29,273 nt of DNA, from the IMG/VR virus record IMGVR_UViG_3300027969_000327, positions 1 to 29,273 of that record; one strand, written 5' to 3'. Below the pieces are notes generated by a model. The model was given only the letters and a program-made list of their open reading frames with translations, was not told the DNA's origin and did not search any database. Position 1 is the stretch's first letter, and every line of letters begins with the position of its first letter. Positions 887-22,056 of this stretch are shown piece by piece. The translations under genes and the position numbers were made by a program. Origin of the DNA: a virus.

Positions 887-1127
887 TTTGCCCACAAATC
901 TACCTGGTGTAGAAAGACTGCTGGCCAGAGTAGCTGCCGCTGAACGCAGCCAACAAAAAGACATTAGAATATCAATACAAGAAGCCAAAGACTTAACTGC
1001 TGAATTAGCAGTACTAACATCTAAGTTAGGGCGTACCGTTCAAGAAATACATGCTATGCTATCGGAAATACGTGAATCCACTACTAAAATCGACGTAAAA
1101 TTCGACGGGGGCGGCTTCAGTTCTTGA
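873..1127 (+). CDS. Small helical conserved phage protein, 84 aa
   Basis: I chose the ATG at 873 (MSQNNLPTNLPGVERLL) over an upstream in-frame TTG at 849, because the product from 873 begins like its apparent marine phage relatives and gives a short overlap with the preceding gene. The sequence is strongly helical: residues about 14-70 carry heptad-like Leu/Ile/Ala spacing (for example AKDLTAELAVLTSKLG), which suggests a coiled coil. The tail is short and glycine-rich (KFDGGGFSS). There are no Cys motifs or catalytic residues. It could be a small structural or transcription-accessory protein; nothing in the sequence decides this. Confidence 0.65.
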   Translation: MSQNNLPTNLPGVERLLARVAAAERSQQKDIRISIQEAKDLTAELAVLTSKLGRTVQEIHAMLSEIRESTTKIDVKFDGGGFSS

Positions 1128-1133
1128 TAAATA
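1126..1133 (+). promoter_or_regulatory. Candidate T4-type late promoter box (GATAAATA)
   Basis: The sequence GATAAATA matches the nATAAATA form of the T4-type late promoter. It overlaps the stop codon region of the preceding gene and lies 30 bases before the next start at 1164. Transcription would begin around 1139. The next gene has a Shine-Dalgarno-like AGGAAA at 1149-1154. Chance matches are common in DNA this AT-rich, so the call rests on its intergenic position. Confidence 0.42.
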
Positions 1134-2374: not shown

Positions 2375-3012
2375 TGAACTCACTAAAACACGTAGGAAAA
2401 ATGAAAAAAGCAGGGTCTAGGGTGATTGTAGCCTTTAGAACTTTGCCCGGAGAATCTAATATGGCATTAGTTATTCCAGTATCCAGTCTAACAGATGACT
2501 ATCATGATAACATTATGAAGTTGGTTGAGACTGACGAGGCACAATCTGCTTTTGAATTAGGCGAAGTGTTGTTTACTAGATCATTTGCTGACGGGCGCCC
2601 AATGTTGCAAGCACTACGTGCTGACGGCAAGATGGCAAAGGTACCAACCGACGATGTCATTATGGTTCCGAGTCCTGGTGCAGAAATTGCACTACATCAG
2701 TTGAATACACTAATTGCAGAACAAAAGAATTGTGCTGTGGATGATTTGTGTACATTTGTATCCGGAGCTCCTCCTACAAAAACCGATGAGCCAAAAGAAC
2801 TTGTAGAAGTTAGGGATCTTGCTCCGGCTGAGAAACCAGCACCACTCAAAGCGGCTGCCAACGAAGCGTTATCTGATAAAGATATTGCCAAGAGCTATCG
2901 TAGTCAAGCCGATTCAATGTACAAAGAAGCTGCTCGATTACGTAAAGAAGCAGACGATTTAGATCCACCGGTAAAGAAAGCGGCAAAGGCCAAAGAAGCT
3001 GAAAGTGCCTAA
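2374..3012 (+). CDS. Conserved phage protein with charged C-terminal tail, 212 aa
   Basis: The N-terminal part (residues about 1-125) contains VIVAFRTLPGESNMALVIPV, a DGRPMLQALRADGKM segment and an LNTLIAEQ segment, a combination I recognise from a hypothetical protein of marine T4-like myoviruses. From about residue 130 the protein becomes Pro/Ala/Lys/Glu-rich. It ends in a helical, charged YKEAARLRKEADDL stretch and a KKAAKAKEAES tail, so the C-terminus is probably disordered or a coiled coil. No enzyme motif is seen. It shares a one-base overlap with the gene before and overlaps the gene after. Confidence 0.68.
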   Translation: MNSLKHVGKMKKAGSRVIVAFRTLPGESNMALVIPVSSLTDDYHDNIMKLVETDEAQSAFELGEVLFTRSFADGRPMLQALRADGKMAKVPTDDVIMVPSPGAEIALHQLNTLIAEQKNCAVDDLCTFVSGAPPTKTDEPKELVEVRDLAPAEKPAPLKAAANEALSDKDIAKSYRSQADSMYKEAARLRKEADDLDPPVKKAAKAKEAESA

Positions 3013-3313
3013 ACCGTTGTTTAAACCGCCAAAGCATCTTGTTCAGGAATGGCCAGAAGTCTTTGAAGATCTTTATATGAATACCATGCCGGTTCACTAC
3101 CTAGAATCAATTAGGTTGGAATTTGGCAATGGTAGGATATGGGAAATCAATATCAAAGAACAACTAGCAAACAGCCATAGCGATATTGTTGCTAACAAAT
3201 TGGTGGAAACTTTTGCAGAATATAAAGAAGATATAAAAAAGATCGACTTTAAAATTGACATAGAAAGGTTAAAGAAAGACATACTAAATCAATCTAACGA
3301 TTTTTTCAAGTAA
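3005..3313 (+). CDS. Conserved phage protein, 102 aa, GTG start
   Basis: It uses a GTG start inside the end of the preceding gene; the product begins MPKPLFKPPKHLVQEWPEVF, whose KPPKHL.EWPEVFEDLYMNTMP pattern is familiar from marine T4-like phages. The C-terminal half is a charged helix (FAEYKEDIKKIDFKIDIERL) likely to form a coiled coil. No catalytic signature. It is the last member of the conserved small-gene block, and the first radical SAM gene begins five bases after its stop, so the two are very probably on the same transcript. Confidence 0.7.
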   Translation: MPKPLFKPPKHLVQEWPEVFEDLYMNTMPVHYLESIRLEFGNGRIWEINIKEQLANSHSDIVANKLVETFAEYKEDIKKIDFKIDIERLKKDILNQSNDFFK

Positions 3314-3318
3314 GAAAT

Positions 3319-4671
3319 ATGAGTGATCATACTAAGTTTCAAAAAATTATACCAATTTTAAATGATGTTAGTCCTAGTTTTTGTCTAGCTAAATGGTATC
3401 AGTTGACACTATATCTTCAAAATGGATTTAATCATAGCTGTCACCATCCGTCACCACATAAAATTCCATTAGACGAATTAGAGCAAAATTACAAAGCTCT
3501 ACACAACACTAAATTTAAAAAAGAACAAATGCAAAAGATGCTAGACGGTGAACGTCCTAGCGAGTGCAGTTATTGTTGGACTGCAGAGGATAATGGGAAT
3601 GTTAGTGATAGAAGTTATAAAAGTGCTACATCTTGGGCATACCCGTATATAGACGAAGTTATTAAAAATAAGACTGCTGATATCGAACCTCGATATGTTG
3701 AAATTAGCTTTAGTAATGTATGTAATTTTAAATGTGCATACTGTTCTCCAGATTTAAGTAGTCAGTGGCATGAAGAAATCTCAAAGCACGGTGCATATCC
3801 AACCAGCCGAAATTACAACGGTTTTGATTGGTTTAAGCAAGTGGGTAAAATGCCTATCAAACATAGTGACCCAAATCCCTATGTAGATGCTTTTTGGGCA
3901 TGGTGGCCCGAATTATATAAAAATTTACATACATTAAGGTTAACAGGTGGTGAACCTTTATTAAGCAAAGACGTATGGCGTATGTTAGATGCTATCGAAG
4001 CAGATCCAAAACAAGATCTCGTACTTGCTATTAATACCAATCTAGGCGTCAGCAGAGATATTATCGATCGAATGATTACTAAAATCAATAATATTAGTAA
4101 AAATATTCAAGAGGTACAAATTTTTACCAGTGGTGAAGCCATGGGGAAAGCTGGAGAGTATATACGATACGGTCTTGATTATCAAGAGTGGTGTCAGAAC
4201 CTAGAATATGTTTTAGACAATACCAATTGCATTGTAGCTGTAATGACCACTGTTAATCTCACTAGCATAACTACCTATTGTGATTTTGTAAGATACCTGT
4301 TGGATTTACGAGGTCGATATAATAAAACTGTTACATTTAATAAAGTACAGTTTATGACTAATACTCTTCGATATCCGGAGTTTCTTTCATTAACTTTACT
4401 AGATAAAGAAACTAAAATAAATTTTGCACAAGAAGTCGAAACTCTAATTGCAGAACGAGGAAAGTTTGACGGGTTAGCCACATTATCGGTTAGTGAAGTT
4501 GATCAATTACGTCGAATGATCAACTACATGAATGAAATTACTCCTAACGAAAAAACATTACGTAAAGATTTTGTTGCGTTTATTAACGAGTACGATCAGA
4601 GGCGCAATACAGATTTTAATCAAGTATTTCCAGAACTTACAGAATTTTATAAAATATGTCAACAACTGTAA
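3319..4671 (+). CDS. Radical SAM protein 1 with N-terminal twitch-like domain, 450 aa
   Basis: This is the first of four consecutive radical SAM genes. The core motif CNFKCAYC (C135, C139, C142) is the CxxxCxxC that binds the S-adenosylmethionine-cleaving [4Fe-4S] cluster, and TGGEP at 209-213 is the SAM-contacting strand. Before the core, C22, C41, C83 and C86 lie in SPSFCLAKWY, NHSCHH and ECSYCW, which fits an N-terminal twitch domain holding an auxiliary iron-sulfur cluster. The C-terminal tail has DQRRNTDF followed by VFPEL. Such proteins catalyse 5'-deoxyadenosyl radical chemistry; the substrate cannot be read from sequence. It starts five bases after the preceding gene and overlaps the next by 16 bases. 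It is closest in design to radical SAM protein 2. Confidence 0.88.
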   Translation: MSDHTKFQKIIPILNDVSPSFCLAKWYQLTLYLQNGFNHSCHHPSPHKIPLDELEQNYKALHNTKFKKEQMQKMLDGERPSECSYCWTAEDNGNVSDRSYKSATSWAYPYIDEVIKNKTADIEPRYVEISFSNVCNFKCAYCSPDLSSQWHEEISKHGAYPTSRNYNGFDWFKQVGKMPIKHSDPNPYVDAFWAWWPELYKNLHTLRLTGGEPLLSKDVWRMLDAIEADPKQDLVLAINTNLGVSRDIIDRMITKINNISKNIQEVQIFTSGEAMGKAGEYIRYGLDYQEWCQNLEYVLDNTNCIVAVMTTVNLTSITTYCDFVRYLLDLRGRYNKTVTFNKVQFMTNTLRYPEFLSLTLLDKETKINFAQEVETLIAERGKFDGLATLSVSEVDQLRRMINYMNEITPNEKTLRKDFVAFINEYDQRRNTDFNQVFPELTEFYKICQQL

Positions 4672-5984
4672 AACGTACAATAGAAATTATTAACGAAATT
4701 AGCCCTAGCTTCTGTGCAGCTAAATGGTATAACGCTACAATATGGTTAGGCAATGGCAGGACTGCAAGTTGCCACTTGCCCCCTGCACACACAATCCCTT
4801 TAAAAGAAATAGCCGTTGATCCTAGTGCATTACACAATACTGAGTTTAAAAAACAACGTAGAAAAGAAATGCTTGACGGTGTGCGATGCAAAGAGTGTGC
4901 ATACTGCTGGACTGTAGAAGATACTGCTTCTCCAGATATACACAGCGACCGCATTTATAAGACTAAAATTTATAAAGAAAATGAAATATTACAATTGGCT
5001 AATATTGATCCTACAGAAAATATTGATCCGAAAACATTAGAAATTAGTTTTGATAATTTGTGTAATCTAAGTTGTACCTACTGTAATTCAGAGTTTAGTA
5101 CAACGTGGTCTAGTGATATCAAACTCAACGGACCGTATACTAAATTAAAAACATCAGGTGGTGGAGCATTTCAAAATGCGGGCGAACACGCATTACCTTA
5201 CGGTATCAAAAATGAAAATAACCCCTACATAGAAGCATTCTTTAAATGGTTTCATGCCGGGCTTAAAGATAATTTGCAGGAATTAAGAATAACCGGCGGT
5301 GAACCTACTCGTAGTCCATGGTTTTGGAAACTGTTAGATGAATGCAAAGATACAAAATTTGACTTTGCAGTTAACAGTAATCTTATCATGGATCAAGTAA
5401 AATTAAATCAGCTAATTAATGCCAGTAAACAGTTTAAAAGATTTGATTTGTACACCAGCGGAGAAGGGTACGGAGCACATGGCGAGTTTATTCGTTGGGG
5501 GTTGGATTATTCTCTATGGCGCAATAATTTAATTCAGTTTGCTAAAGAAGGTCAATATAACCTGATAAATGTCATGATGACTATCAGCGCACTGAGTATC
5601 TGGACTGTGACAGAGTTCATGACAGATATGTTAGAATTACGTAAACAATTTGGCGGGCATCAATTTTTTATGGGTCTCAATTTGGTGAGATTTCCTAGCT
5701 TTCAAAACTTAAATGTATTACCTCAACATTTAAAACAAGCACAAGCAGATAAAATTGAAATTTGGCTAAGTACTGCTGTTGGGTTGCATCCTGCTGAAAC
5801 TAATCAAATAGAAAGAATAGTCGAGTATCTTCGAACTGTTGAACGAAGTCAAGAAGACACTGACAGCCAAGAAGATAAAGCAAAAGACTTAAAAAGTTTT
5901 ACACAACAATATGCTGATAGAAAAAATATTGCATTATCTAGTGTATTCCCAACAGAATTTATAGAATGGTTTAACACAATATGA
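4656..5984 (+). CDS. Radical SAM protein 2 with N-terminal twitch-like domain, 442 aa
   Basis: It is a paralogue of the preceding gene: both start with a .EI(N/S).SPSFC.AKWY pattern and share LHNT.FKK plus a CSYCW/CAYCW segment. N-terminal cysteines C20, C39, C78, C81 and C84 could bind an auxiliary cluster. The radical SAM core is CNLSCTYC (C136, C140, C143), with TGGEP at 213-217. The C-terminus has a VFPTEFIEWF tail. The start lies inside the 3' end of gene 1 and the stop overlaps gene 3 by four bases, so translation is probably coupled. A charged insert (residues about 390-410, SQEDTDSQEDKAKD) precedes the tail. Substrate unknown. Confidence 0.88.
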   Translation: MSTTVKRTIEIINEISPSFCAAKWYNATIWLGNGRTASCHLPPAHTIPLKEIAVDPSALHNTEFKKQRRKEMLDGVRCKECAYCWTVEDTASPDIHSDRIYKTKIYKENEILQLANIDPTENIDPKTLEISFDNLCNLSCTYCNSEFSTTWSSDIKLNGPYTKLKTSGGGAFQNAGEHALPYGIKNENNPYIEAFFKWFHAGLKDNLQELRITGGEPTRSPWFWKLLDECKDTKFDFAVNSNLIMDQVKLNQLINASKQFKRFDLYTSGEGYGAHGEFIRWGLDYSLWRNNLIQFAKEGQYNLINVMMTISALSIWTVTEFMTDMLELRKQFGGHQFFMGLNLVRFPSFQNLNVLPQHLKQAQADKIEIWLSTAVGLHPAETNQIERIVEYLRTVERSQEDTDSQEDKAKDLKSFTQQYADRKNIALSSVFPTEFIEWFNTI

Positions 5985-7195
5985 GTAAAGATAATTTTTG
6001 CATAGTACCGTGGATACATCTTAATACAGAACCTAATGGACGGGTTAAAACTTGTTGTGCGTATCAAGGCGATGCAGCTGGCGACTTAAAAGATAATACA
6101 TTAGAAGAAATATGGAATAATGAGCATACCAAGTCTATGCGCACAAGTTTTTTACAAAATAAAATACCCGACGGGTGTTTGACTTGTACTAAAAAAGAAG
6201 ATAGTGGTGGCGTCAGCGTTCGTATGGCGCTCAATACTCGATTCGAACATCACATCGAAACAGCTAAAAACAATACGTTGCCAGACGGAACTTATGAAAC
6301 ATTTAAACTGCCTTATTGGGATTTCAGATTCAGCAATATCTGTAATTTCAAATGTCGTATGTGTGGGCACGGATGTAGTAGTGCGTGGTGGGACGATTTT
6401 ACACCAGAAGCAAAGAAAACTAAACCAAAATTTTTAGACAGTTCGTACTATGGTACAGACCTGATGAAGTATGTTGACGAATTTATTGATGACGTTGAAG
6501 AAATATACTTTGCTGGAGGCGAACCTTTATTGATGGCAGAACATTATCAAATCTTAGACAGGTTAATTGCTAAAGAAAAATACGATGTATTTTTGCGATA
6601 TAATACCAACATGAGTACTCTCAAATATAAAAACTATGATCTAATCGACATATGGAAAAGATTTAAAGATGTTAGGATATTTGCTAGTATTGACGGTGTT
6701 GATGAAAATGCTGAATACAGCAGATCAGGGACAGATTGGCCGAGGGTTGAAGAAAATTTAAAACGTCTAGTAGAGTCTAAAATTGGATATGTTGTATCTG
6801 CCACTATAAATATTTTTAGTGTATTTAATTTTACTCATCTAGTAGATCGAATGATAAACTTAAATATGTCCACTAGAAAATTGCTAGTAAGTCATCTTCA
6901 CTGGCCCAAATACTATGCAACTTCGATATTGACCGATGAGCTAAAAGATAAAGTAAGACTGCAACTAGATGAGCATTTAGAAAAAATAACTCCATTGGTG
7001 ACTGAAGAAGAAAGTCGTTGGCTCGCTAATCTATATAAAGAAATTAAATTTTATCTAAACTCAACTGCATCACCAAAAGAAATTATCGATCTACAACAGC
7101 AATTTAAACGTAATACTAACAGGTTGGATACTATTAGAAATGAAGATATAAGAATTGCCGTTCCTGAAATAGCCGAATGGTTTGATACACTATGA
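5981..7195 (+). CDS. Radical SAM protein 3 with N-terminal twitch-like domain, 404 aa
   Basis: The N-terminus FCIVPWIHLN, then CCAY (C25, C26) and CLTC (C66, C69), is the layout of twitch-type radical SAM proteins in which the auxiliary-cluster domain precedes the core. The core motif is CNFKCRMC (C121, C125, C128), followed by a GHGCSSAWW stretch with a fourth cysteine, C132. AGGEP is at 178-182. The tail IRNEDIRIAVPEIAEWF matches the other three paralogues. ATGA overlaps couple it to the genes on both sides. It is closer to radical SAM protein 4 than to 1 and 2, so the array is two pairs rather than four equal copies. Confidence 0.88.
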   Translation: MSKDNFCIVPWIHLNTEPNGRVKTCCAYQGDAAGDLKDNTLEEIWNNEHTKSMRTSFLQNKIPDGCLTCTKKEDSGGVSVRMALNTRFEHHIETAKNNTLPDGTYETFKLPYWDFRFSNICNFKCRMCGHGCSSAWWDDFTPEAKKTKPKFLDSSYYGTDLMKYVDEFIDDVEEIYFAGGEPLLMAEHYQILDRLIAKEKYDVFLRYNTNMSTLKYKNYDLIDIWKRFKDVRIFASIDGVDENAEYSRSGTDWPRVEENLKRLVESKIGYVVSATINIFSVFNFTHLVDRMINLNMSTRKLLVSHLHWPKYYATSILTDELKDKVRLQLDEHLEKITPLVTEEESRWLANLYKEIKFYLNSTASPKEIIDLQQQFKRNTNRLDTIRNEDIRIAVPEIAEWFDTL

Positions 7196-8400
7196 GTGAT
7201 AAATTTATTTGTGATTTTCCGTGGATACACCTAAGTGTATTTCCGCAAGGTAATTGTACAATCTGTTGTGTGGCCAATCATTTAGATAAAGATAACGGAC
7301 ACAGTTGGAATAGGATTAGTGAAAATGAAACTAAAACTATAACAGTTATGAATAGCAATATACCAGAAATTGTTAACTGCGACAATTATAAAAATATTAG
7401 ATTAGATATGTTGGCGGGCAAAGTTCCTCCCGCTTGCGAAGGATGCCATCAAATAGAACAAGCAGGTGGGCAGAGTAAACGTCAGAAAGAAACTAATCGT
7501 AATTTAGATCACGAAGCTCTAACTGCTGCTGACGGCTCGATCAAAACAGATTTGCGTCATATTGAGCTACGTCTAGGAAACTTTTGTAATTTAAAATGTC
7601 GTAGCTGTAATGCTGACTCAAGTACTAGTTGGATTCAAGACTATTATAAATTAAAAGATACAGTTAAATTAGCAAGTGGATACGATTGGATTAAAAAGAA
7701 TCCAGATTTTAGTTTTGACTGGGTCGATGACGAATCGTTTTATACCCGACTAACAGAATTTGCTCCTAACCTAGAACAAATACATATCAGCGGTGGAGAG
7801 CCGTTTCTTGTACCAACACATTTTAAATTATTAGAAAAACTAGTGCAAGAAGGTAAAACTGATATTGCTATTCACTATCATACAAATTTAAATTATAAAT
7901 GGGATAAGATTACGCCGGCGCTAGACTTATTAACTAAATTTAAAGAAGTACATATTAGCTTTAGTATTGATGATGTTGGAGACCGTAATACCTACATTAG
8001 AAGTTTAAGTGACTGGAATTTAACTATTAACAACTTAAAATTGTTTTTAAGCAACTATAAATTTATTTACCGTATAACTCAGACGGTTAGTGTGTATAAT
8101 TTTATGTACGTTGAAGAACTAGAAAAGTATTTGGCTGACAATAAAATACGTATTAAAGTAAGTCTAAACCATGTTCAGACTCCAGACTATCTGGCGGCCA
8201 ATATACTACCTAAGCAGGTGAGACAAGACAAAATTAATTCACTACACGGCGTTATCAGTCAGCGCAATTGGGAAGATCTTTACGGACATTACTATAATCT
8301 AGAAGCTAACGGACAATGGGATTACTTTAAATACTTTACTGAAAAAATTGATGCTGTACGTAACGAAGACTTAAATACTATTTTTCCAAAATTATTATGA
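7192..8400 (+). CDS. Radical SAM protein 4 with N-terminal twitch-like domain, 402 aa
   Basis: It begins FICDFPWIHLSVFPQGNC and shares the (F)C..PWIHL opening with radical SAM protein 3. The N-terminal cysteines are C7, C22, C25, C26, C82 and C85 (the last two in ACEGCHQ). The core is CNLKCRSC (C132, C136, C139) and SGGEP is at 200-204. The tail VRNEDLNTIFPKLL is a shortened form of the tail in the other three. Its stop overlaps the start of the 266-residue gene by four bases. Like the others it should be a cytoplasmic iron-sulfur enzyme that depends on host iron-sulfur assembly and a host electron donor; no such partner is encoded in this window. Confidence 0.87.
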   Translation: MSDKFICDFPWIHLSVFPQGNCTICCVANHLDKDNGHSWNRISENETKTITVMNSNIPEIVNCDNYKNIRLDMLAGKVPPACEGCHQIEQAGGQSKRQKETNRNLDHEALTAADGSIKTDLRHIELRLGNFCNLKCRSCNADSSTSWIQDYYKLKDTVKLASGYDWIKKNPDFSFDWVDDESFYTRLTEFAPNLEQIHISGGEPFLVPTHFKLLEKLVQEGKTDIAIHYHTNLNYKWDKITPALDLLTKFKEVHISFSIDDVGDRNTYIRSLSDWNLTINNLKLFLSNYKFIYRITQTVSVYNFMYVEELEKYLADNKIRIKVSLNHVQTPDYLAANILPKQVRQDKINSLHGVISQRNWEDLYGHYYNLEANGQWDYFKYFTEKIDAVRNEDLNTIFPKLL

Positions 8401-9197
8401 AATTTATTTTTTTAAAATCAGGCGACTATCTAGAACTAGAGCCTAACAACACACCCATAGCATCTGCTTGGTTTGATAATATTTTTTCAGAAAAAATGAA
8501 TATGAGCTATTTTGCTAAAGGTAAAGCGTACATAGGAAGCACAAATCAAAATCTGTTTAATCTAAAAAACTCCATTAGAATTGTAAATCAATTTGCTACA
8601 GAAAAAAACTTACCACAACTGTTATTTCCTATAATTACAGGCCTCGATCAAACATCAATGAATGCATTACATAAACAATGGGTTAAATGCACTATTGAAT
8701 TTGTTCATATTGTTCACGGCGACGATATAAAAGAAGAATATCCTACATTTGTGAGTGCATGGCAAAATATTAATACTTACATTCATGCTCTAGAAAATTA
8801 TTATTCTATATTTTTTAGCAACGATCGAGATACATATTTAGAAAAAATTGATGTAAAGATACGTCCGGAAGATTGCGAATATTCACAACATGATTTAATT
8901 TTGTCATTTCAAGACTTAGGTAGACATCAGTTTGATCAATGGCAAACTGGCAGTACTGTAGACGAAGAGACCAGTAATTACAAGAGAATTCCAGCTAGAT
9001 TTGACTACATATTTCACCCACAGTTGATTAAGGGATTACCGCCTAATCCTGCATACGTAGAGTGGTGTGGAAAAAATAATTTACAAGTATTGCCGCCGTG
9101 GATTATTTTGGGAAACTTTAAAAAGAATAGGTGGGAAGTTAAGCAACTTATGCATCAAAACTTATCTCAAGGGTTGGCAGTAGGATTTGAATTATGA
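8397..9197 (+). CDS. Unrecognised protein coupled to the radical SAM genes, 266 aa
   Basis: I do not recognise this family. It is joined by ATGA overlaps to radical SAM gene 4 upstream and the SGNH hydrolase gene downstream, so it very likely belongs to the same functional unit. It is soluble-looking and rich in aromatic residues, and has no signal peptide or membrane segment. Notable stretches are a SFQDLGRHQFDQWQTG segment near residues 170-186 and an LPPWIILGNFKKNRWEV segment near the end. Only two cysteines that could be paired are obvious (WVKC and EWCG) and there is no CxxxCxxC, so it is not a fifth radical SAM enzyme. It might be a substrate-binding or partner protein for the radical SAM set; that is inference from position. 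Confidence 0.72.
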   Translation: MKFIFLKSGDYLELEPNNTPIASAWFDNIFSEKMNMSYFAKGKAYIGSTNQNLFNLKNSIRIVNQFATEKNLPQLLFPIITGLDQTSMNALHKQWVKCTIEFVHIVHGDDIKEEYPTFVSAWQNINTYIHALENYYSIFFSNDRDTYLEKIDVKIRPEDCEYSQHDLILSFQDLGRHQFDQWQTGSTVDEETSNYKRIPARFDYIFHPQLIKGLPPNPAYVEWCGKNNLQVLPPWIILGNFKKNRWEVKQLMHQNLSQGLAVGFEL

Positions 9198-10057
9198 AAA
9201 TATATGTAAATGGTGACAGTTTTACCGCTGGCGACGGATTGGCAGATCCAGAAGTTTTTCCAAATTTGTATCCAGGGCATCATTTTACCGGCAAGACATT
9301 ATCCCGGGAATGGTGCAATACAAGACATGCATTAATGGATGGAAATCACGAGTTGCACCATCACTGGCGAGTTAATAATCAAAAATATGTTTGGTCTACA
9401 ATATTGGGAGAGTTAGTTAATACATTGGTAAATGTAGGCGATGTTAGCGTAATTAATGGTGCTGTTGGTGGATCATGTATGTTGGGCATATCAACTAGAA
9501 CCATTGCCTATCTCGAATCATTAACAAGTCGGGCAGACTTACCGGATTATGTTTTTATAGGGTTAACAAATAGTGGAAGACTAGGATGGTATCACGATGA
9601 TGTAGAACATCTCGGTAAAATTTTTAACTGGGTTAAATCTTCAATTCCAGGATTTTATTATCGAGGATATGAAAGTAAACATAAAAAATTGTTTGAAACT
9701 GTTTGGACGACCCTCAGTGATGAAGAGTTGCTTATCGATTATCTAAAAGAATGTTTACTAATTAAAAACTATGTCAAGCGAAGAATCGGCCGAGATCCTA
9801 TTTTTTTAAACACCGTAAGTGAATTTTGGCAATACAAAAAACTAGTTGATAACTCTAAAAATCAATGGCTTCGAATGCTTTGGTTTGATCTATTAGAATT
9901 TGACAAAATTAATACTCGATGGTTCAATAAGGGAACATTTGGTCAAATGACTGCTTGTGGGCATCTACTTCCAGACGCTCATACCGATTATGCTAAAGAT
10001 TTAGCAAGAGAACATTTTGGATGGGGGAAAAGTCTAGATGACAGAGATTCTGATTAA
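9194..10057 (+). CDS. SGNH/GDSL-family hydrolase-like protein, 287 aa
   Basis: The N-terminus VNGDSFTAGDG is block I of the SGNH hydrolase superfamily, with nucleophile Ser9. NGAVGGS at 88-94 supplies the block II glycine, TNSG at 125-128 is a candidate block III asparagine (Asn126), and LPDAH with Asp261 and His263 is the expected DxH pair near the C-terminus. The family includes esterases, lipases and carbohydrate O-acetyl or acyl transferases and esterases. There is no signal peptide, so it acts in the host cytoplasm or within the virion. The C-terminal insert (about 160-250) is aromatic and unlike minimal GDSL enzymes. It is the last gene of the plus-strand operon, ending at a convergent junction. 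A sugar or lipid ester substrate is plausible but not shown. Confidence 0.75.
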   Translation: MKIYVNGDSFTAGDGLADPEVFPNLYPGHHFTGKTLSREWCNTRHALMDGNHELHHHWRVNNQKYVWSTILGELVNTLVNVGDVSVINGAVGGSCMLGISTRTIAYLESLTSRADLPDYVFIGLTNSGRLGWYHDDVEHLGKIFNWVKSSIPGFYYRGYESKHKKLFETVWTTLSDEELLIDYLKECLLIKNYVKRRIGRDPIFLNTVSEFWQYKKLVDNSKNQWLRMLWFDLLEFDKINTRWFNKGTFGQMTACGHLLPDAHTDYAKDLAREHFGWGKSLDDRDSD

Positions 10058-10083: not shown

Positions 10084-12084
10084 TCAGGCAGGAGGAGATG
10101 GATTTTGAAATTGCGCTAACAGCCAATCAAAATCATTAATTTTTGCCAATTGATCAGGATTGGCAATATTGGCTATACCATATTGTCTACCAGCTGTTGC
10201 TCCCATAATAGCATACTCGCCGAGATGGTTGGTTGATCCAAAATTACACCAGGCATATAATCGATCCTCGGTTTCTTCTTGATACTTAGGATCAATTGGC
10301 CTACTTGCTAATTTTACACATTCTCTAAATGCTGATTTCCAAGTGTTAAACGGATCTGTATTAAATGCTGTAATATTACTTACAGTCTGCATTACTTTAA
10401 ATTTATTACTGATTGACATTGTCATGTCAATGCTAGATTTACCAAGATCCATTTTTTCAGTTAAATTCCTAGGTAGTAGCTTTACACCGCCATACCCATA
10501 GGTAAGATTGTTGATAGGATTACGACTTAACCAAACATGTACAATATCTGTATCATGTTTAGGTAATAATAGTTCAAATGCAAAATCATCTTCCACTACA
10601 GCATCTCCGTCAACTACCCAGAACATAGGGGTTGTTGCTGTTTTAGCAGCAGCGACGTGTGCTTGATGAATACCTTTTACTCCGTGTATGCGTTTTGCTC
10701 TAGGAAATCTTTCAATTAGCTTGGCAAAGTTTTCATCCGCATTAGGTTCGTTATAAGATATAAACACAATATCGTATAGCTTTAACTCACTAGCTACAAC
10801 GTCATATTCTTTCTTTTCGATCAAATATCGATATTCTACTTCTCTAGCAGAAATAGGTGCTTGCTTAGACAATAGCATGATGCCATTATATTTGTCTTCT
10901 TCGATATCTTTATTTTTAAAAACATGATTCATACCACGATCGTAATTGTTTTGATACTGAAATTGTAGATCAAATTTAAAATCCGGCAACGAGTCAACTT
11001 CTGGCGGGATCGACCAAAACATGTCTGTACTAGATGTTGCAAGAGCCTGTTCATAATCTTTAAATGTATCAATTATAAATTTATCATAGGGTTTGGATCT
11101 GCTGGCTATAATACCATATTCTTTTTTATTGATTAAAAACTTGTGATCTATTTCTTTTTTAGATACTGGCGTATTCTTAGAAAATAATACAACTCCATTA
11201 ATAAAAGATTCTAGATCATTGCATGTGTTTTTGAATACATGATTTTCATTCTTGTCATACGAATTATGATGACTAAAATGTATAGCAAACACTGTTTCAT
11301 CTAGTATTTCAACATTTGACCATATACCCCAAAACATATCTGTACTAGATGTTGCAAGAGCCTGTTCATAATCGTTGAACGTATCAATTATAAACTTGTC
11401 GTAAGGCTTAGACTGACTTGCCACAACATCATATTCTTTTTTGTTAATTAAAAATTTATGATTAATTTCTTTCTCGGATACCGGTTTATTTTTAGAAAAT
11501 AATATAATACCGTTAACGAATGACGTTTCATCATTACACAAATTTTTAAATACATGGTTCTCGGCTCTATCATACAAGTCATGATAACTAAAATACATAT
11601 CAAAAATCGTTTGGTCAACAATATTAACATTTGACCATACGCCCCAAAACATCTCAGTTGTTGAAGTGGTTAATGCTTTTAAATAATCACTATAACTTGT
11701 TATTACAATTCTATCATATTTTTTTGGAATACTTGCTACCGTTGGCATTTCTTTTTTATTAACGTAGAATCGATTTTCAAATTCTTTGTGTGTAGGTTCT
11801 AAATTTTTAGAAAACAATCCAACACCGTCATAAGATGTATCATTTAACCATACGTGAATGTACTCTTGGTCCCATTCAGGAACTCGATAACTAAAATCAA
11901 AATTTTCAACAATTTCTAAATCATCCCACACTATCCAAAATAATTTTGTAAATGCTTTTGTCTTTATATCACTAAAAGATTTTACATTATCAATTTTCTG
12001 AGCAGAAGGAAAACGCAAACGAAATTGTTTCCAATCGTGTTCGGAAATAATATTTTTGCTTACGTAAAAAATATCATAAACCAT
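10084..12084 (-). CDS. Repeat protein: four degenerate plus one intact glycosyltransferase-like modules, 666 aa
   Basis: The protein is built of modules of about 105 residues starting near residues 1, 123, 228, 333 and 437. Each has a YD-(I/K)-hydrophobic opening, a central (M/L)FW, a His- or aromatic-rich stretch and an FSKN/LSKQ-like segment. Only the last module (437-666) carries FISYNEPNAD, HGVKG and FWVVDGDA with D492 and D494 as the DxD motif, and then a longer C-terminal part. It resembles the upstream glycosyltransferase (FLSYDEPNAD, HGVKG, VDAD). In modules 2-4 the DxD position reads WSNV or PPEV, and in module 1 WDDL, so they are probably non-catalytic. The repeats may bind sugar or target protein, or act as spacers. 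It overlaps the upstream gene by 11 bases and is last in the minus-strand operon. Confidence 0.75.
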   Translation of the reverse strand: MVYDIFYVSKNIISEHDWKQFRLRFPSAQKIDNVKSFSDIKTKAFTKLFWIVWDDLEIVENFDFSYRVPEWDQEYIHVWLNDTSYDGVGLFSKNLEPTHKEFENRFYVNKKEMPTVASIPKKYDRIVITSYSDYLKALTTSTTEMFWGVWSNVNIVDQTIFDMYFSYHDLYDRAENHVFKNLCNDETSFVNGIILFSKNKPVSEKEINHKFLINKKEYDVVASQSKPYDKFIIDTFNDYEQALATSSTDMFWGIWSNVEILDETVFAIHFSHHNSYDKNENHVFKNTCNDLESFINGVVLFSKNTPVSKKEIDHKFLINKKEYGIIASRSKPYDKFIIDTFKDYEQALATSSTDMFWSIPPEVDSLPDFKFDLQFQYQNNYDRGMNHVFKNKDIEEDKYNGIMLLSKQAPISAREVEYRYLIEKKEYDVVASELKLYDIVFISYNEPNADENFAKLIERFPRAKRIHGVKGIHQAHVAAAKTATTPMFWVVDGDAVVEDDFAFELLLPKHDTDIVHVWLSRNPINNLTYGYGGVKLLPRNLTEKMDLGKSSIDMTMSISNKFKVMQTVSNITAFNTDPFNTWKSAFRECVKLASRPIDPKYQEETEDRLYAWCNFGSTNHLGEYAIMGATAGRQYGIANIANPDQLAKINDFDWLLAQFQNPSPPA
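11017..11410. repeat. Tandem DNA repeat, period 315 bases, in the 666-aa gene
   Basis: The block starting near 11017 recurs 315 bases later near 11332 (exactly 105 codons). A 33-base run, beginning at 11026 in one copy and 11341 in the other, is identical, and the following 40 bases differ at only a few positions. This matches the junction of protein modules 3 and 4. Conservation at the nucleotide level points to a recent duplication or to gene conversion. Confidence 0.8.
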
Positions 12085-12985
12085 CAGCAGACCTCATATA
12101 TGTGTTTGTTAGTTTAATTGTTTCTTCATATAGATCTAATGTGTATTTGCTTTGTGTAGCATCAAGAAATGGATAATCAAATCCCAGTTCTAATTTGATT
12201 TTTTCACCTAATGATTTAATTTCTTCCGTTAGGCCAGTGCCGTCTACTTCTTCAAAAGGTCGACCATACTGGTTCCATATACCTTTAAGAATTTCAAAGT
12301 CTCTAACCTCTACGTAATCCCATTCAGTGCAATTTGCCAACCATGTGCCTAATCTTGCACCGTAGACTGCATAAAGACCGTTTTCTTCATGAGCGCCAAC
12401 TGTAGACCACATGCGTAATCTATGTAAATTATGCCACCAAATACGTTCTTGAATTTCATCAGGTGAAATTTTGACTCCATCAAGCAAGGTCATTTTTACA
12501 CCTTCGCGGAATCCTGCTCTCCATGCTTGGAAAGGACTTCCGGTAATATCAGTGTCGCTATAACATTCTTTAAATTGACGGTAGCCGTCTTCCCAACAGA
12601 AGTCAACTTGAGCGCGATCGCTATCGCTAGCTTCGTGAGTTTTCATGTTGAGAATAAAATCTCGTTTCCATATTTTAAGACCGCCGTTCCCGTAGAGTAA
12701 ACCGTTAAGCCTATTTCTTCCTAACCAGCTGTATACTTGTATTTTGGGATTGCTGATGTCAATGTCTAAATTAAAAAATTTAGAATCTACAATATTATCA
12801 GCATCGACTGTGATTATCCAATCAGTTTCACTTACTTCAGCAGCACGTTTATGAGCAGCATCACTACCTTTAACACCGTGAACTCGTTTGGCCCAAGGTA
12901 TTTTATTACACAAATCTGCATAATGCATATCTGCGTTAGGCTCGTCATAACTTAAAAATACGATGTCTAATTCTACTGTTTTCAT
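12074..12985 (-). CDS. Glycosyltransferase (GT-A-like, DAD motif), 303 aa
   Basis: The N-terminus has FLSYDEPNAD (residues 10-19), HGVKG (36-40) and IITVDADNIVD with Asp61 and Asp63 as the DxD metal/nucleotide-sugar motif. The LGRNRLNGLLYGNGGLKIW segment (about 89-107) has the form of the acceptor region in the intact module of the neighbouring 666-residue protein. Later PFQAWRAGFREGVK resembles that module's PFNTWKSAFRECVK, so the two are homologous. It probably transfers a sugar from a nucleotide-sugar donor in the infected cell cytoplasm. There is no signal peptide or membrane segment. Start and stop overlap neighbouring genes by 4 and 11 bases. Donor and acceptor cannot be predicted. Confidence 0.76.
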   Translation of the reverse strand: MKTVELDIVFLSYDEPNADMHYADLCNKIPWAKRVHGVKGSDAAHKRAAEVSETDWIITVDADNIVDSKFFNLDIDISNPKIQVYSWLGRNRLNGLLYGNGGLKIWKRDFILNMKTHEASDSDRAQVDFCWEDGYRQFKECYSDTDITGSPFQAWRAGFREGVKMTLLDGVKISPDEIQERIWWHNLHRLRMWSTVGAHEENGLYAVYGARLGTWLANCTEWDYVEVRDFEILKGIWNQYGRPFEEVDGTGLTEEIKSLGEKIKLELGFDYPFLDATQSKYTLDLYEETIKLTNTYMRSADGL

Positions 12986-13575
12986 TTTGTCTCAAAAATA
13001 TATTTGTCAAAAATTCTACGTGTATAAACACTAAATCTATTTGGCAAATCTAGTGTAAATGATTTTGTGATTTCTGTAATGTCGCCGGCTCTAATACTTA
13101 ACATATGAAGAAGAACATTGGGATCATTATAATCAGTGACTAAAAATACCATTTCAGTCTCGCCGTCCCAAATGATGTTTTTTGAGTATTTGTCGCTCAT
13201 TGAAAAAGTCAATGACTTATTTTCTTTATTGTAAGATATCATAACATCGGGATCTGTTATTGTTGACCATTTTTTATCAATAACTCTGTGTAATACATCA
13301 TCTATTTTTATTAGACTGTGCGTAGAAAATTTACTTATTTTAACAAGTTTTTTTGTAGGAAGATCTACTCGATAAGAAAATATATTTTCTTCTCCTGACG
13401 CTATCGAATCAGCAACTTCTTCATCAATTTTTATTTTGTTGAGAAAATCTTGAGAGGCATGAGCAGGATAAACTCCTAAAAGTGAACCATCATCTTCATT
13501 GAATTTTACAAAATATTCTACTTGATTGACTGGTAGTTTAATCCATTCATCGAAGTCCATTAATTTTTGTTCCAT
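12982..13575 (-). CDS. Unrecognised protein between glycosyltransferase genes, 197 aa
   Basis: The start at 13575 (MEQKLMDFDEW) is supported by GAGGAG just upstream; a second ATG at 13560 also overlaps the previous stop (TAATG). The protein looks beta-rich and charged (for example YSKNIIWDGETEMVFLVTDYN), without a signal peptide, membrane segment or DxD motif. Its tight packing between glycosyltransferase genes (15-base overlap before, 4-base overlap after) suggests a shared role, perhaps as a glycosylation target or virion component. It may resemble a decoration or tail-accessory protein, but I cannot assign a family. Confidence 0.65.
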   Translation of the reverse strand: MEQKLMDFDEWIKLPVNQVEYFVKFNEDDGSLLGVYPAHASQDFLNKIKIDEEVADSIASGEENIFSYRVDLPTKKLVKISKFSTHSLIKIDDVLHRVIDKKWSTITDPDVMISYNKENKSLTFSMSDKYSKNIIWDGETEMVFLVTDYNDPNVLLHMLSIRAGDITEITKSFTLDLPNRFSVYTRRIFDKYIFETK

Positions 13576-14402
13576 GCTATCTCCTCTAACATGCTAACTA
13601 TTTCATCTGTTATTAAATCTTTTTCAACATAATGAACAATATCATACTGTTGATAATTTCCTATTTTTAAATTTCCATGCATATTGAAATAAAAGCCGGC
13701 ATGTTCAGTGACTCTTTCAGCAGCCCATGGCCAATTTTGTATCATAGGTTTTAGATGTACAAGTTTAGGAAAGTCTAAATCATGTGCAATATCGTCGGCT
13801 ATATCTAAAATTTTTGCTGCAAGGCCAAATGCTTCGTCAGTACCAACTACTTTAGGACGAAAATCCGACATGTATAAATTTTTAAATTCGATAGGATTTT
13901 TTAAAATAAATCTACCTAATTCAAAAAACTCTGTTGCAATATCGGTGTTCTTTTTAAAAAAGGTAAACATTGAATACAGGCTTGGAATTTTATTTTTTGT
14001 AAATGCTTTTCTATAAAAGTCACTGGTAATTTCTTCGCCTCTATAGGTATAGGCTTTGCTAGCAACATATAATTCTTTGTGTTTTACAAAATAATCAATC
14101 CAATGACTATAATCTCTTAAAAATAACATGTCTGCATCAAGACATACTGTATTTTCAAAAGGAGATAATTGGTCCATCCAACTGCGGCCATCCCAATGGG
14201 TTTCTTTGTCCCATTTAATTACATGATCAAAGACCCACGGGCTTTTTAGATTTTTAATCAGCTCAGGATTATCTATTACTAGAGCAACTTTATCATAGCC
14301 TGGCTTTTGAGTATTCTTAATACTTAATGCTAATGCATAAGCCAGTTTGAGATAATCAACTTCTTTATTAGATGAAACAACTATTAGATAACCAAAGTTC
14401 AT
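13560..14402 (-). CDS. Glycosyltransferase-like protein (GT-A, DAD motif), 280 aa
   Basis: The sequence starts GYLIVVSSNKEVDYLKLAYA, a Rossmann-like opening in which a sugar-nucleotide-binding strand is followed by a helix. It carries VCLDADMLFLRD with Asp89 and Asp91 as a DxD motif, the pattern of GT8-like and related retaining transferases (LDADxL). A PWVFDHVIKWD segment sits before the motif and HLKPMIQNWPW near the C-terminus; a late HLKP or HxxGxxKPW-type element is common in such enzymes. It is soluble, with no membrane anchor. ATGA overlap with the upstream gene and a 15-base overlap with the downstream gene place it in one translational unit. Confidence 0.7.
   Translation of the reverse strand: MNFGYLIVVSSNKEVDYLKLAYALALSIKNTQKPGYDKVALVIDNPELIKNLKSPWVFDHVIKWDKETHWDGRSWMDQLSPFENTVCLDADMLFLRDYSHWIDYFVKHKELYVASKAYTYRGEEITSDFYRKAFTKNKIPSLYSMFTFFKKNTDIATEFFELGRFILKNPIEFKNLYMSDFRPKVVGTDEAFGLAAKILDIADDIAHDLDFPKLVHLKPMIQNWPWAAERVTEHAGFYFNMHGNLKIGNYQQYDIVHYVEKDLITDEIVSMLEEIAWNKN
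13581..13586 (-). promoter_or_regulatory. Ribosome-binding site GAGGAG for the gene starting at 13575
   Basis: GAGGAG on the minus strand lies five bases before the ATG at 13575, inside the end of the upstream glycosyltransferase gene. It supports that start over the ATG at 13560. Confidence 0.6.
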
Positions 14403-15259
14403 ATTAATTCCAATAATTTTTCTTTGTTTCTAATAATACTTTGTTTATTCATAACATGAACATCAGACCCTTGTGTAGTTGTGGCCCAAAAATCTCCGCA
14501 ATTCAGTGGTTTATCGATTAAAAATATTAATTGATCCCCATCTACATCATGTAAAATGTCTTTGTCAAATACTGTTAGAATAGGAGGCAAACTATAAACA
14601 AATTCAGTTTCATATCCATTCATAATATGTTTGGCAATACTGAAAGATATATCATTCCTATATTGTTTAGGATTAAATCTAAACAAGTCTGCGTAATATC
14701 GATAGTTGTCTTTTATATAATCTACTAATTTAAAAAAGAATCTGCTTTCTTCATTTTTTGTAAACATCACAGTTGTGGCCCAGAACATATGGATTCCAGT
14801 TTCACTAACTCGTTGATCTAATATTCCGCTACGCTCTCCTGTTATATCATTCATAGAATGCCCTAACATTACACTGGCATCGGTATCCCAGTATTCGTTT
14901 AATTGATTAGAAAAAATTAAATAATCGCTATCAATTAATAAAGTTTGATCGTACGGACTTAGGTCCCAAACTGAAAATCTGTTGGAATTTACAAACGGAA
15001 TAGTTTTACTGTAAAAGCCATCATGCAAAGTTCTTGTATTTTTAGTTCTAGGTTTTTCAATTTCGATAATTTTATCAAATATCGATTCTGCCTTTGAATA
15101 CATTCCAGATTCTTTTAACCAAGCAATAGTCCACTGATCTGTTATCAGACTAACCGGCAACCCTAGATGTTTTTTTGCTAGGCCTCCAGAAATTATGCCC
15201 ATTATTCCATAATCTACTTCGGGGCCGTTATGAGCAAAAATTAATACGCCTTTGGTCAT
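14399..15259 (-). CDS. Glycosyltransferase-like protein (DSD motif), 286 aa
   Basis: The protein opens GVLIFAHNGPEVDYGIMG and has LLIDSDYLIF with Asp110 and Asp112 as the DxD-type metal-binding site, then a FWATTVMFTKN segment typical of the acceptor side in phage GT-A-like enzymes. The C-terminal HVMNKQSI may provide the final metal-ligand His. The family is plausible for sugar transfer to virion or lipid-linked glycans, but assignment to a numbered GT family is uncertain. It overlaps by four bases with genes on both sides, as part of the five-gene run that begins at 15606 after the palindromic promoter region. Confidence 0.66.
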   Translation of the reverse strand: MTKGVLIFAHNGPEVDYGIMGIISGGLAKKHLGLPVSLITDQWTIAWLKESGMYSKAESIFDKIIEIEKPRTKNTRTLHDGFYSKTIPFVNSNRFSVWDLSPYDQTLLIDSDYLIFSNQLNEYWDTDASVMLGHSMNDITGERSGILDQRVSETGIHMFWATTVMFTKNEESRFFFKLVDYIKDNYRYYADLFRFNPKQYRNDISFSIAKHIMNGYETEFVYSLPPILTVFDKDILHDVDGDQLIFLIDKPLNCGDFWATTTQGSDVHVMNKQSIIRNKEKLLELI

Positions 15260-15606
15260 ATTTTCAATAATTTTTCTACTGTTCTACTAGATTTAATTTT
15301 TTCGTATTCTTCGTGATATTCATACGTTGCTGAGAAATATCTATCTAGAATTTCATCTTGAAATTGTTGTAGGTCTGAAATTAAGATTGGGTTTTCATTT
15401 TGATCAATTAGAGGGACATTTTCTGTTCTACCTTGATCTATCAGCATTTGAACAAATACTAATAATGTTCTATCAATTTTAAATACTCCGCCAGAATTAC
15501 CATAGGTTAACTTACCTTCAATTCTTTCTCTAAGGGTTTTTCGTTGTATTGCTAGAGTTTGTCTATAATTAGAAAAGTCTAAGGCAGCTTTTAGCCGGTC
15601 GTCCAT
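15256..15606 (-). CDS. Conserved phage protein at the tail/glycosyltransferase boundary, 116 aa
   Basis: A clear TAGGAGAT ribosome-binding sequence precedes the ATG. The protein contains ALDFSNYRQTLAIQRKTL, a GNSGGVFKIDRTLLVFVQML segment and a helical C-terminus (YEYHEEYEKIKSSRTVEKL). I recognise this as a small conserved hypothetical protein found beside tail-fibre genes of marine T4-like phages. It has no catalytic motif and could be a tail-fibre assembly factor or chaperone; this is suggested by position only. It heads the glycosyltransferase operon and its stop overlaps the next start (ATGA). Confidence 0.7.
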   Translation of the reverse strand: MDDRLKAALDFSNYRQTLAIQRKTLRERIEGKLTYGNSGGVFKIDRTLLVFVQMLIDQGRTENVPLIDQNENPILISDLQQFQDEILDRYFSATYEYHEEYEKIKSSRTVEKLLKI

Positions 15607-15616
15607 GGTATCTCCT

Positions 15617-15650
15617 ATAAAACACGCATATTATTTATGCAATGTTTTAT
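15617..15650. repeat. Palindromic element between tail and glycosyltransferase genes
   Basis: On the plus strand ATAAAACA (15617-15624) pairs with TGTTTTAT (15643-15650), and GCATA (15626-15630) with TATGC (15636-15640). The loop is TTATT, with one unpaired base on one side and two on the other. It fills most of the 57-base gap between the genes ending at 15664 and starting at 15606. It could act as a weak terminator or processing signal for tail-gene transcripts reading through. Confidence 0.6.
15632..15639 (-). promoter_or_regulatory. Candidate late promoter box (CATAAATA)
   Basis: Read on the minus strand the sequence is CATAAATA, the nATAAATA form of T4-type late promoters. It lies inside the palindrome, 25 bases upstream of the ATG at 15606, with TAGGAGAT between. 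A transcript starting about six bases after the box would carry the ribosome-binding site but only part of the hairpin. Confidence 0.5.
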
Positions 15651-15663
15651 CGGGGATTAAAAA

Positions 15664-16560
15664 TTATGAACCAGAAATTGCGCCTACTGATGTAGAAGTT
15701 GGGCCTATAATGGTAAACGTTCCGCTTGGCTGTAAGAATCCCGATGGGCGAACTTGATCAACTGTTAGTGTAAGTGTACCGTCTACTAAATCTCCTGGTC
15801 CAATGAATGCATTAGGATCTGTATATGCATCTAACCAAGTTATTCTAAAATTAACAATGTTTGCTGTTCCTAGTGTATTACTAGAAACATTACATGAGGC
15901 TTCTAGTCTCCATTTGTTATTAGAATAAGCCGAACTACCTGAAACTTCAGCAAATGTTTGATACCCGTTGGTTAGTGAAAAGAAATGTACTCCGGTAGGT
16001 GTTCCTGAAAATATTTGTGTTCCTGCACCACTTAATAAATTACTCCACGACGTATTTTGTGCTTCTCCATTACCACCGGTTCTAGAACTAGCAAATCGAA
16101 TTTTTCCTCCAGCATTAAAGAAAAATCTTGCTTGTTCGGCTGTGGCAAATGTAATCGATGTCGTTGAACTAACTGATTGATACCAGGAAGAAGTAAACGA
16201 TGTAGTATTAATTGCTTCAGTTACAAATTGCCCTGTTCCTAAGTCAAATCGGTTTATAGTTGCTTGGTCAGCTATTGTATCGTATTGAAAGTTAGGCTGA
16301 CTTGCTCCGTATCTAATCACGTCTCCGACAAAAACCGTAGTCAACGATGGAGCTGACCCCGTTTGGTGTAACACTGCATTATAGATGTCATATCGTAGGG
16401 CGTCCCACTGATTTTTTGTCACTGAATTGCCTGCTGAAATTAACGAGCTAAATGTTGTCTGTCCGTAGCCAAAGTTTCCTGCACCTATTGCCATGACATT
16501 TTGAATTTTGGTTCTGATTGTGTTATAATCAGTTGCGGAGATGAAATCACCTATTGCCAT
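15664..16560 (-). CDS. Virion structural protein, probable tail-fibre accessory, 298 aa
   Basis: The N-terminus (MAIGDFISATDYNTIRTKI, then a GNFGYGQTTFSS stretch and VTKNQWDALRYDIYNA) strongly resembles a structural protein seen at the end of tail-fibre clusters in marine T4-like phages. The middle (ATAEQARFFFNAGGKIRF) and the Ser/Thr/Gly-rich C-terminus suggest beta-rich appendage domains. AAGGAT upstream serves as ribosome-binding site and overlaps the previous stop. There is no signal peptide. It is the last of the structural genes before the glycosyltransferase cassette and would make a plausible glycosylation target because it is rich in Ser and Thr, though this is speculation. Confidence 0.75.
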   Translation of the reverse strand: MAIGDFISATDYNTIRTKIQNVMAIGAGNFGYGQTTFSSLISAGNSVTKNQWDALRYDIYNAVLHQTGSAPSLTTVFVGDVIRYGASQPNFQYDTIADQATINRFDLGTGQFVTEAINTTSFTSSWYQSVSSTTSITFATAEQARFFFNAGGKIRFASSRTGGNGEAQNTSWSNLLSGAGTQIFSGTPTGVHFFSLTNGYQTFAEVSGSSAYSNNKWRLEASCNVSSNTLGTANIVNFRITWLDAYTDPNAFIGPGDLVDGTLTLTVDQVRPSGFLQPSGTFTIIGPTSTSVGAISGS

Positions 16561-18321: not shown

Positions 18322-18343
18322 TGATTAACTCCGTTGTAATTAT

Positions 18344-18351
18344 TATTTATC
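18344..18351 (-). promoter_or_regulatory. Candidate late promoter box (GATAAATA)
   Basis: Minus-strand GATAAATA lies 22 bases before the ATG at 18321, in the short gap after the upstream fibre gene, with a CGGAG ribosome-binding sequence in between. It sits inside a small palindrome, TATTTA-TCG-TAAATA (18344-18358). Layout is the same as at 15632-15639. Confidence 0.5.
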
Positions 18352-18365
18352 GTAAATATAGCCAT

Positions 18366-20180: not shown

Positions 20181-20206
20181 TTATCGCTCCATTACATATT
20201 TAACTA

Positions 20207-22045: not shown

Positions 22046-22056
22046 TTTTCTTTACC

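Follow-up and report, generated by a model that had tools for sequence, protein, structure and literature searches.

The four tandem radical-SAM genes found in the 29,273-nucleotide stretch of viral DNA analysed here (IMG/VR record IMGVR_UViG_3300027969_000327, hereafter the window) represent one of the alleles that occupy a hypervariable slot, flanked by a conserved tail-fibre/glycosyltransferase (GT) operon and a conserved small gene, f10. With a probability of roughly 45%, their putative products act as late-expressed tailoring enzymes for a tail-fibre-linked glycan or glycoprotein. The original prediction, which had read the genes as an unusual radical-SAM array, is partly supported overall; the tail-fibre/GT cassette together with which the array is conserved was absent from it. 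The features of the operon that holds the array, which begins well upstream of it, are as follows:

1127..1133, plus strand: T4-type late-promoter core, heading the operon that contains the array; the same sequence occurs in two relatives
3005..3313, plus strand: f10, conserved small gene at the border of the variable slot
3319..4671, plus strand: predicted N-twitch radical-SAM enzyme, class A, 450 aa (NF033640, 351 bits; clade A node support only 0.40)
4656..5984, plus strand: predicted N-twitch radical-SAM enzyme, class B, 442 aa (279 bits; clade B support 0.97; 16-base overlap with A)
5981..7195, plus strand: predicted N-twitch radical-SAM enzyme, class C, 404 aa (374 bits; Pfam SPASM match)
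7192..8400, plus strand: predicted N-twitch radical-SAM enzyme, class D, 402 aa (327 bits; clade D support 0.97)
8397..9197, plus strand: P5, conserved partner coupled to D by 4 bases, also placed after ABCD in relatives, in either orientation
9194..10057, plus strand: GDS-motif (SGNH/GDSL-like) protein, coupled by 4 bases, with an N-terminal GDSF motif read by eye

As originally described, the four consecutive radical-SAM genes (3319-8400) are complete, intact open reading frames on the plus strand, overlap by 16, 4 and 4 bases, and belong to a phage. Each product contains one CxxxCxxC motif (CNFKCAYC, CNLSCTYC, CNFKCRMC and CNLKCRSC in the order A to D), one GGEP motif and four N-terminal cysteines of twitch type, the latter being invariant in alignments of 43-54 diverse homologues per class. 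All four proteins exceed the curated cut-off of 170 bits for NF033640 (N_Twi_rSAM), with 279-374 bits over nearly the full 398 positions, and a Pfam SPASM domain lies at residues 7-70 of the class C protein (P0003), N-terminal to its radical-SAM domain. From these motifs and profile matches, the genes are predicted to encode NF033640-type twitch radical-SAM enzymes that cleave SAM with the help of 4Fe-4S clusters. Their pN/pS ratios against a 353-kb relative (0.08-0.20) and dN/dS ratios among closer relatives (0.02-0.07, computed by an NG86 script) show that none of the four is decaying; the array is under strong purifying selection.

Phylogenetic analysis places the four genes in four clades, A, B, C and D, and the two sub-pairs proposed earlier are real, with A+B and C+D forming separate superclades (supports 0.97 and 0.90). 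A lies upstream of B in 101 of 101 loci, and 4-8 such paralogues per array occur in approximately ninety distinct IMG/VR loci examined, although these loci were collected by similarity and such gene-order counts, like the linkage counts below, are non-independent. The four types are old clades held in a single order, which favours the multi-step pathway that had been suggested over a local duplication of recent date. An origin by recent tandem duplication was rejected, given that the genes fall into separate clades shared across viruses (the clade A node itself being weak, 0.40). The view of the four-gene run as exceptional is not supported, arrays of 4-8 being common in related viral contigs. 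It had been argued that the arrangement would be ordinary if most related phages shared the run with a known role; arrays are indeed common, but no such shared role emerged, and close relatives hold different gene sets at this position.

This variability is confined between GT2 and f10, where 41 distinct slot alleles were recognized. Class A is present in 38 of them and stands alone in three; in these three, its substrate cannot be another product of the slot. Ten alleles combine class A with NDP-sugar SDR enzymes (epimerases), some of them also with 2OG-Fe oxygenases, and further neighbours of the arrays include carbamoyltransferase, APS kinase, DegT aminotransferase, UDP-Glc dehydrogenase and PIG-L genes. 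In the window, the 4-base coupling runs on past class D through 8397-9197 and 9194-10057. P5 yielded no match in profile-family searches and its predicted structure was unusable (pLDDT 49); homology to a downstream family, f7, had been suspected by eye and was not borne out, with no profile matches and an HHalign probability of 44%. The GDS-motif protein lacks a Pfam match, and its profile matches that of a similar neighbour family, f23 (HHalign probability 98%). In agreement with the original prediction, the operon has no room for a precursor-peptide gene, as genes overlap throughout 3319-10057 and occupy the coding strand without a gap. A RiPP cluster was also considered and rejected, for lack of a precursor and of any RRE/PqqD match among the operon proteins, and with the twitch domain N-terminal instead of C-terminal.

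Beside the array lies a conserved operon with the order fibres-f5-f4-GT8-GT8-f12-GT2-GT2, whose components in the window are listed below:

10084..12084, minus strand: GT2-like glycosyltransferase (weak Pfam Glycos_transf_2 match, E 0.0014, below cut-off; GT2-family profile match)
12074..12985, minus strand: GT2-like glycosyltransferase with a VDADN motif; its family adjoins radical-SAM genes in 30 of 31 long contigs
12982..13575, minus strand: f12, conserved 197-aa protein between GT genes
13560..14402, minus strand: GT8-type glycosyltransferase (family profile matches glycogenin-1, E 1.5e-8)
14399..15259, minus strand: GT8-type glycosyltransferase of the same family, 92% identical in the relative G003
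15256..15606, minus strand: f4, encoding a conserved protein of 116 aa; opens the GT operon
15632..15638, minus strand: T4-type late-promoter core ATAAATA, upstream of f4
15664..16560, minus strand: f5, recognized by its conserved position between the fibres and f4
16570..24129, minus strand: four tail-fibre/tail-collar proteins with a common N-terminal domain (PHROG tail-fibre and tail-collar matches; mutual matches)

When viral contigs of at least 12 kb were retrieved by GT2 alone, a twitch radical-SAM gene was located within 10 kb in 30 of 31, and GT8, f12 and f4 were present in 31, 31 and 29 of them, respectively. In five large contigs, strong GT2 matches lie about 3 kb or less from a radical-SAM gene of the NF033640 family. 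Approximately four N-terminal repeats of about 105 aa were read by eye in the protein encoded at 10084..12084, whereas a BLASTP self-comparison showed none.

The T4-type late-promoter motif is associated with fibre and f4 genes and is missing ahead of GT and radical-SAM genes: ATAAATA was found upstream of 70 of 176 fibre genes and 64 of 139 f4 genes, compared with 0 of 310 GT8 and 0 of 262 GT2 genes. A scan for sigma-70 promoters and terminators remained at chance level. Large relatives (contigs of 187-353 kb) are T4-like and encode Fe-S carriers. Three of them (G001-G003) possess a Gp23-family major capsid protein, and G003 is collinear with the window, which is a fragment without that gene. 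Judged from this gene content, the source is predicted to be a giant T4-like (jumbo) virus of bacteria.

Taken together, GT2/GT8/fibre linkage, the slot alleles, the late-promoter pattern, the A-before-B order and the Fe-S supply support a swappable tailoring slot within a late-expressed fibre/GT cassette of T4-like jumbo phages. GT8 and GT2 would assemble a glycan chain on a protein of the virion (fibre, f5 or f12), and the first radical reaction on that glycan, or on the site of its attachment, may be carried out by class A. B, C and D could perform strain-specific later steps, such as epimerisation, dehydrogenation, deoxygenation or C-C/C-S linkage, which in other alleles might be taken over by sugar epimerases, 2OG-Fe oxygenases and GDS-motif proteins, while phage-encoded IscU and A-type carriers would help to load the 4Fe-4S clusters. 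The phages would thereby decorate their host-recognition apparatus variably, in a manner comparable to O-antigen variation. Bacterial homologues give mixed indications: in Bdellovibrionota, some class A genes have GTs, ABC-2 exporters, carbamoyltransferase and APS kinase in their vicinity, in favour of such tailoring, whereas some bacterial class A clusters hold PqqD-like or SPASM proteins that would suit a peptide substrate. The GT2 proteins, whose Pfam match is below cut-off only, also count against a glycan.

Direct modification of fibre proteins or f12 by the radical-SAM enzymes (cross-links, epimerisation or C-H functionalisation of side chains or backbone), with the GTs acting separately or later, is a rather unlikely alternative. 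SPASM/twitch domains typically belong to enzymes that modify peptides and proteins, a set of several paralogues would fit a protein modified at several sites, and f12 is nearly always situated between GT genes. The 2OG-Fe oxygenases, present in other slot alleles, can act on proteins as well as sugars, which weakens the case for a glycan. The AlphaFold model of the class C protein (pLDDT 94.5) has as its nearest solved structures mostly the peptide-modifying SkfB, CteB and SuiB, with anSME also listed, another point against glycan tailoring, but the TM-scores of only about 0.4 are generic for the superfamily; the list also includes BlsE, viperin and a lipid enzyme, and the comparison does not discriminate between substrates. 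A four-protein profile searched against solved-structure sequences gave weak viperin matches only. Against direct modification, the operon is devoid of a PqqD/RRE domain or precursor, and slot alleles exchange radical-SAM genes for NDP-sugar enzymes.

Less probable again is remodelling of the host surface polysaccharide during infection to block superinfection, as proposed for the glycosyltransferases of the pelagimyophage host-recognition cluster (PMC7029224). GT8 genes and radical-SAM cassettes do occur in such islands of SAR11 phages (PMC7029224), and polysaccharide-export genes are situated close to some of the bacterial homologues. Remodelling is disfavoured by the late-promoter pattern and by the continuity of the operon with the fibre genes, although late expression is compatible with it, and an O-antigen flippase is absent among the families that happened to be annotated here. 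It is highly improbable that the product or substrate of the enzymes is a small molecule, cofactor, nucleotide or tRNA base and that the fibre neighbourhood is a mere insertion hotspot: QueE-like proteins or queuosine-type genes occur in similar genomes (KVP40, and the neighbourhood of locus L005 read by eye) and viperin-like folds appear in the class C list, but linkage to one GT2/GT8/f12 set and a near-constant gene order exceed what a hotspot would produce.

Viral surveys repeatedly count radical-SAM genes as auxiliary metabolic genes without a role. Ordered arrays in a late fibre/GT cassette with exchanged enzyme sets turn them into a testable hypothesis for host-recognition variation in uncultured jumbo phages and indicate that a great many radical enzymes still await characterisation. 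We tentatively propose that an exchangeable multi-step radical-SAM pathway, expressed together with the late structural genes, might let T4-like jumbo phages vary the chemistry of their fibres, or of a glycoprotein bound to them, from strain to strain. Such a pathway would be the phage equivalent of an O-antigen locus and might be the first of the radical-SAM type that is dedicated to a receptor-binding structure of the virion.

Radical-SAM-rich phages have been described already, whereas our literature searches found no report of an ordered array or a swappable slot. The NF033640 model, matched by all four window proteins, carries no substrate in its name; the window presents four ordered sub-clades in one operon. 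SkfB, CteB and SuiB, which are SPASM/twitch RiPP maturases, share the radical-SAM barrel and an auxiliary-cluster domain with the array proteins, but in the array this domain is N-terminal and the window has neither precursor peptide nor RRE. The Vibrio phage QD01 carries radical-SAM genes. In the Vibrio phages KVP40 and K566, class C has remote relatives (about 15-25% identity), two or more per region; the window's class A protein (P0001), GT2, GT8 and f4 had no match in 50,697 phage records, and the cassette is thus absent from both phages at that sensitivity. The T4-like environmental phage TARA_ERS488813_N000010 contains 12 radical-SAM genes and an A-type carrier gene, which the portion of the report consulted treats as Fe-S metabolism, giving no ordered array, GT linkage or slot (PMC5332604). 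The closest parallel in gene content is the pelagimyophage host recognition cluster, where tail fibres, GT8 and radical-SAM cassettes differ between related phages, the freshwater genomes of that study having no radical-SAM genes (PMC7029224). Like such T4-like clusters, the window combines tail-fibre genes and GT8 in a hypervariable region, and here the order of the genes, the borders of the slot, the distribution of late promoters and the near-constant presence of class A are resolved as well.

The window is one entire IMG/VR record of 29,273 bases, in which four complete radical-SAM open reading frames overlap successively by 16, 4 and 4 bases. Since the coupling extends into a conserved partner protein, P5, and a GDS-motif gene, the array is a piece of a longer operon.

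Coupled genes of the window (plus strand)
3319-4671, plus, class A radical-SAM ORF, complete
4656-5984, plus, class B radical-SAM ORF, complete
5981-7195, plus, class C radical-SAM ORF, complete
7192-8400, plus, class D radical-SAM ORF, complete
8397-9197, plus, P5, coupled to the radical-SAM array
9194-10057, plus, GDS-motif protein, coupled in turn to P5

The radical-SAM motifs and N-terminal cysteines claimed in the original prediction were found as described and are invariant across 43-54 homologues per class. All four proteins score above the cut-off of NCBIfam NF033640, and their genes are under strong purifying selection. In the class C protein, which has a confident AlphaFold model (pLDDT 94.5), the Pfam SPASM match covers residues 7-70, N-terminal of the barrel. 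In a close relative (L007:4027-4851), class B appears broken into a shortened 275-aa ORF, possibly through a frameshift or an assembly error.

Such arrays are common. IMG/VR scans returned 27 relatives with the class A query and at least about 600 stretches with the class B and C queries. Among 128 loci with no identical radical-SAM protein in common, 93 carry at least four genes of the family, and 61 carry at least four with gaps below 60 bases; close neighbours overlap in 283 of 323 pairs, the overlap being exactly 4 bases in 84. Large related viral contigs encode from 4 to about 20 NF033640 members above the cut-off, one contig having fewer strong matches. On a 518-kb contig (L201, G005), about 16-20 such genes are spread over several clusters. 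In a FastTree phylogeny of 552 representatives, the window's genes fall into four clades within two superclades, A+B (support 0.97) and C+D (0.90), the node defining clade A by itself reaching only 0.40. Gene order, which played no part in selecting loci, is kept across them: A precedes B in 101/101 cases, A precedes C in 88/89, B precedes C in 88/93 and C precedes D in 77/83, counts that are not independent because the loci were selected by similarity and are related. The most frequent strings of three or more genes are ABCDC, ABCD and ABC.

The array belongs to a fibre/glycosyltransferase cassette. On the opposite strand of the window, a single run encodes a baseplate-type protein, four tail-fibre proteins, the conserved proteins f5 and f4, two GT8-type glycosyltransferases (family profile match to glycogenin), the conserved protein f12 and two GT2-like glycosyltransferases (weak Pfam match). 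GT2 was used as an IMG/VR query so that radical-SAM genes did not steer selection; of the contigs thus found, the 31 with a length of 12 kb or more contain N-twitch radical-SAM genes (30/31), GT8 (31/31), f12 (31/31) and f4 (29/31), usually laid out as fibres-f5-f4-GT8-GT8-f12-GT2-GT2-radical SAM. With one GT8 gene as query, N-twitch radical-SAM genes were present in 19 of 23 contigs. In five large contigs the strong GT2 matches are no more than about 3 kb from an NF033640 radical-SAM gene, and part of a 353-kb contig (G003) is collinear with the window. The second GT2-like protein (10084-12084) seems by eye to carry about four repeats of ~105 aa ahead of its GT domain, a BLASTP self-comparison showing none; its counterparts in relatives are between about 220 and 1030 aa long, which would fit a varying number of repeats. 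The four consecutive tail-fibre proteins (16570-24129) have a common N-terminal domain and differ downstream, which suggests several alternative fibres.

The 70 bases upstream of each gene were scanned for the T4 late-promoter core, ATAAATA, which by analogy with T4 the window's phage would recognise. It precedes fibre genes (70/176, 7.1 expected), f4 (64/139, 4.6 expected) and f5 (20/150, 5.6 expected), mostly 25-40 bases from the start, and within those 70 bases was absent before GT8 (0/310), GT2 (0/262) and f12 (0/115) and rare before radical-SAM genes (5/523). This pattern suggests that the glycosyltransferase and radical-SAM genes lie downstream within late operons, and the cassette is probably late. 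The window's own array is inverted and lies within a plus-strand operon with ATAAATA at 1127, a motif also present in two relatives.

Between GT2 and the small conserved gene f10 lies a hypervariable slot, for which 41 distinct gene sets were found. Class A occurs in 38 of them: alone in three, as A-A-D with another radical-SAM family, as the window's A-B-C-D-P5-GDS (in both orientations), or with an NDP-sugar epimerase/dehydratase and, in some, a 2OG-Fe oxygenase. The sets thus show B, C and D to be exchangeable for sugar-nucleotide and oxygenase genes. Where class A is the only gene of the slot, its substrate must be supplied by the fibre/glycosyltransferase genes, another part of the phage or the host.

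These features fit tailoring, in successive steps, of a glycan or glycoprotein on the host-recognition apparatus, for which we infer chemistry, acceptor and biological effect alike: class A would act as a near-constant first enzyme, followed by exchangeable later ones, consistent with the glycosyltransferases, the sugar-nucleotide enzymes as alternatives and a late operon containing fibres. The main rival is direct modification of a protein by the radical-SAM enzymes, toward which fold comparison tilts slightly without deciding. Remodelling of the host surface, the preferred reading for glycosyltransferases in PMC7029224, is a further possible explanation that sits less naturally with late expression.

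Gp23-type capsid genes occur in three of the large contigs (G001-G003). As a possible Fe-S supply, an IscU homologue and two A-type Fe-S carriers are encoded in each of G002, G003 and G004, and one carrier in G001; in the former three (records of L012, L015 and L198), IscU adjoins or overlaps one carrier, the second lying on the same contig. The closest cellular class A homologues (about 38-45% identity) come mostly from Bdellovibrionota MAGs. Some of these homologues have neighbourhoods of polysaccharide type, with an ABC-2 exporter, glycosyltransferase, carbamoyltransferase, APS kinase or DegT aminotransferase; some lie near PqqD or SPASM proteins. Certain Bdellovibrionota contigs, including L129 and L130, hold clusters with two or three phage classes (B-D-C-B in L130, close to an integrase-like gene), which points to genes having been exchanged with phages or to the remnant of a phage.

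A search of the open literature, which takes in few subscription journals or preprints, turned up no account of the ordered array, of its constant association with a late GT8-GT8-f12-GT2 operon or of the exchangeable slot. The enzymes themselves are already known, as are many radical-SAM genes in one phage: PMC5332604 notes a T4-like environmental genome with 12, and radical-SAM cassettes differ between the host-recognition clusters of pelagimyophages (PMC7029224).
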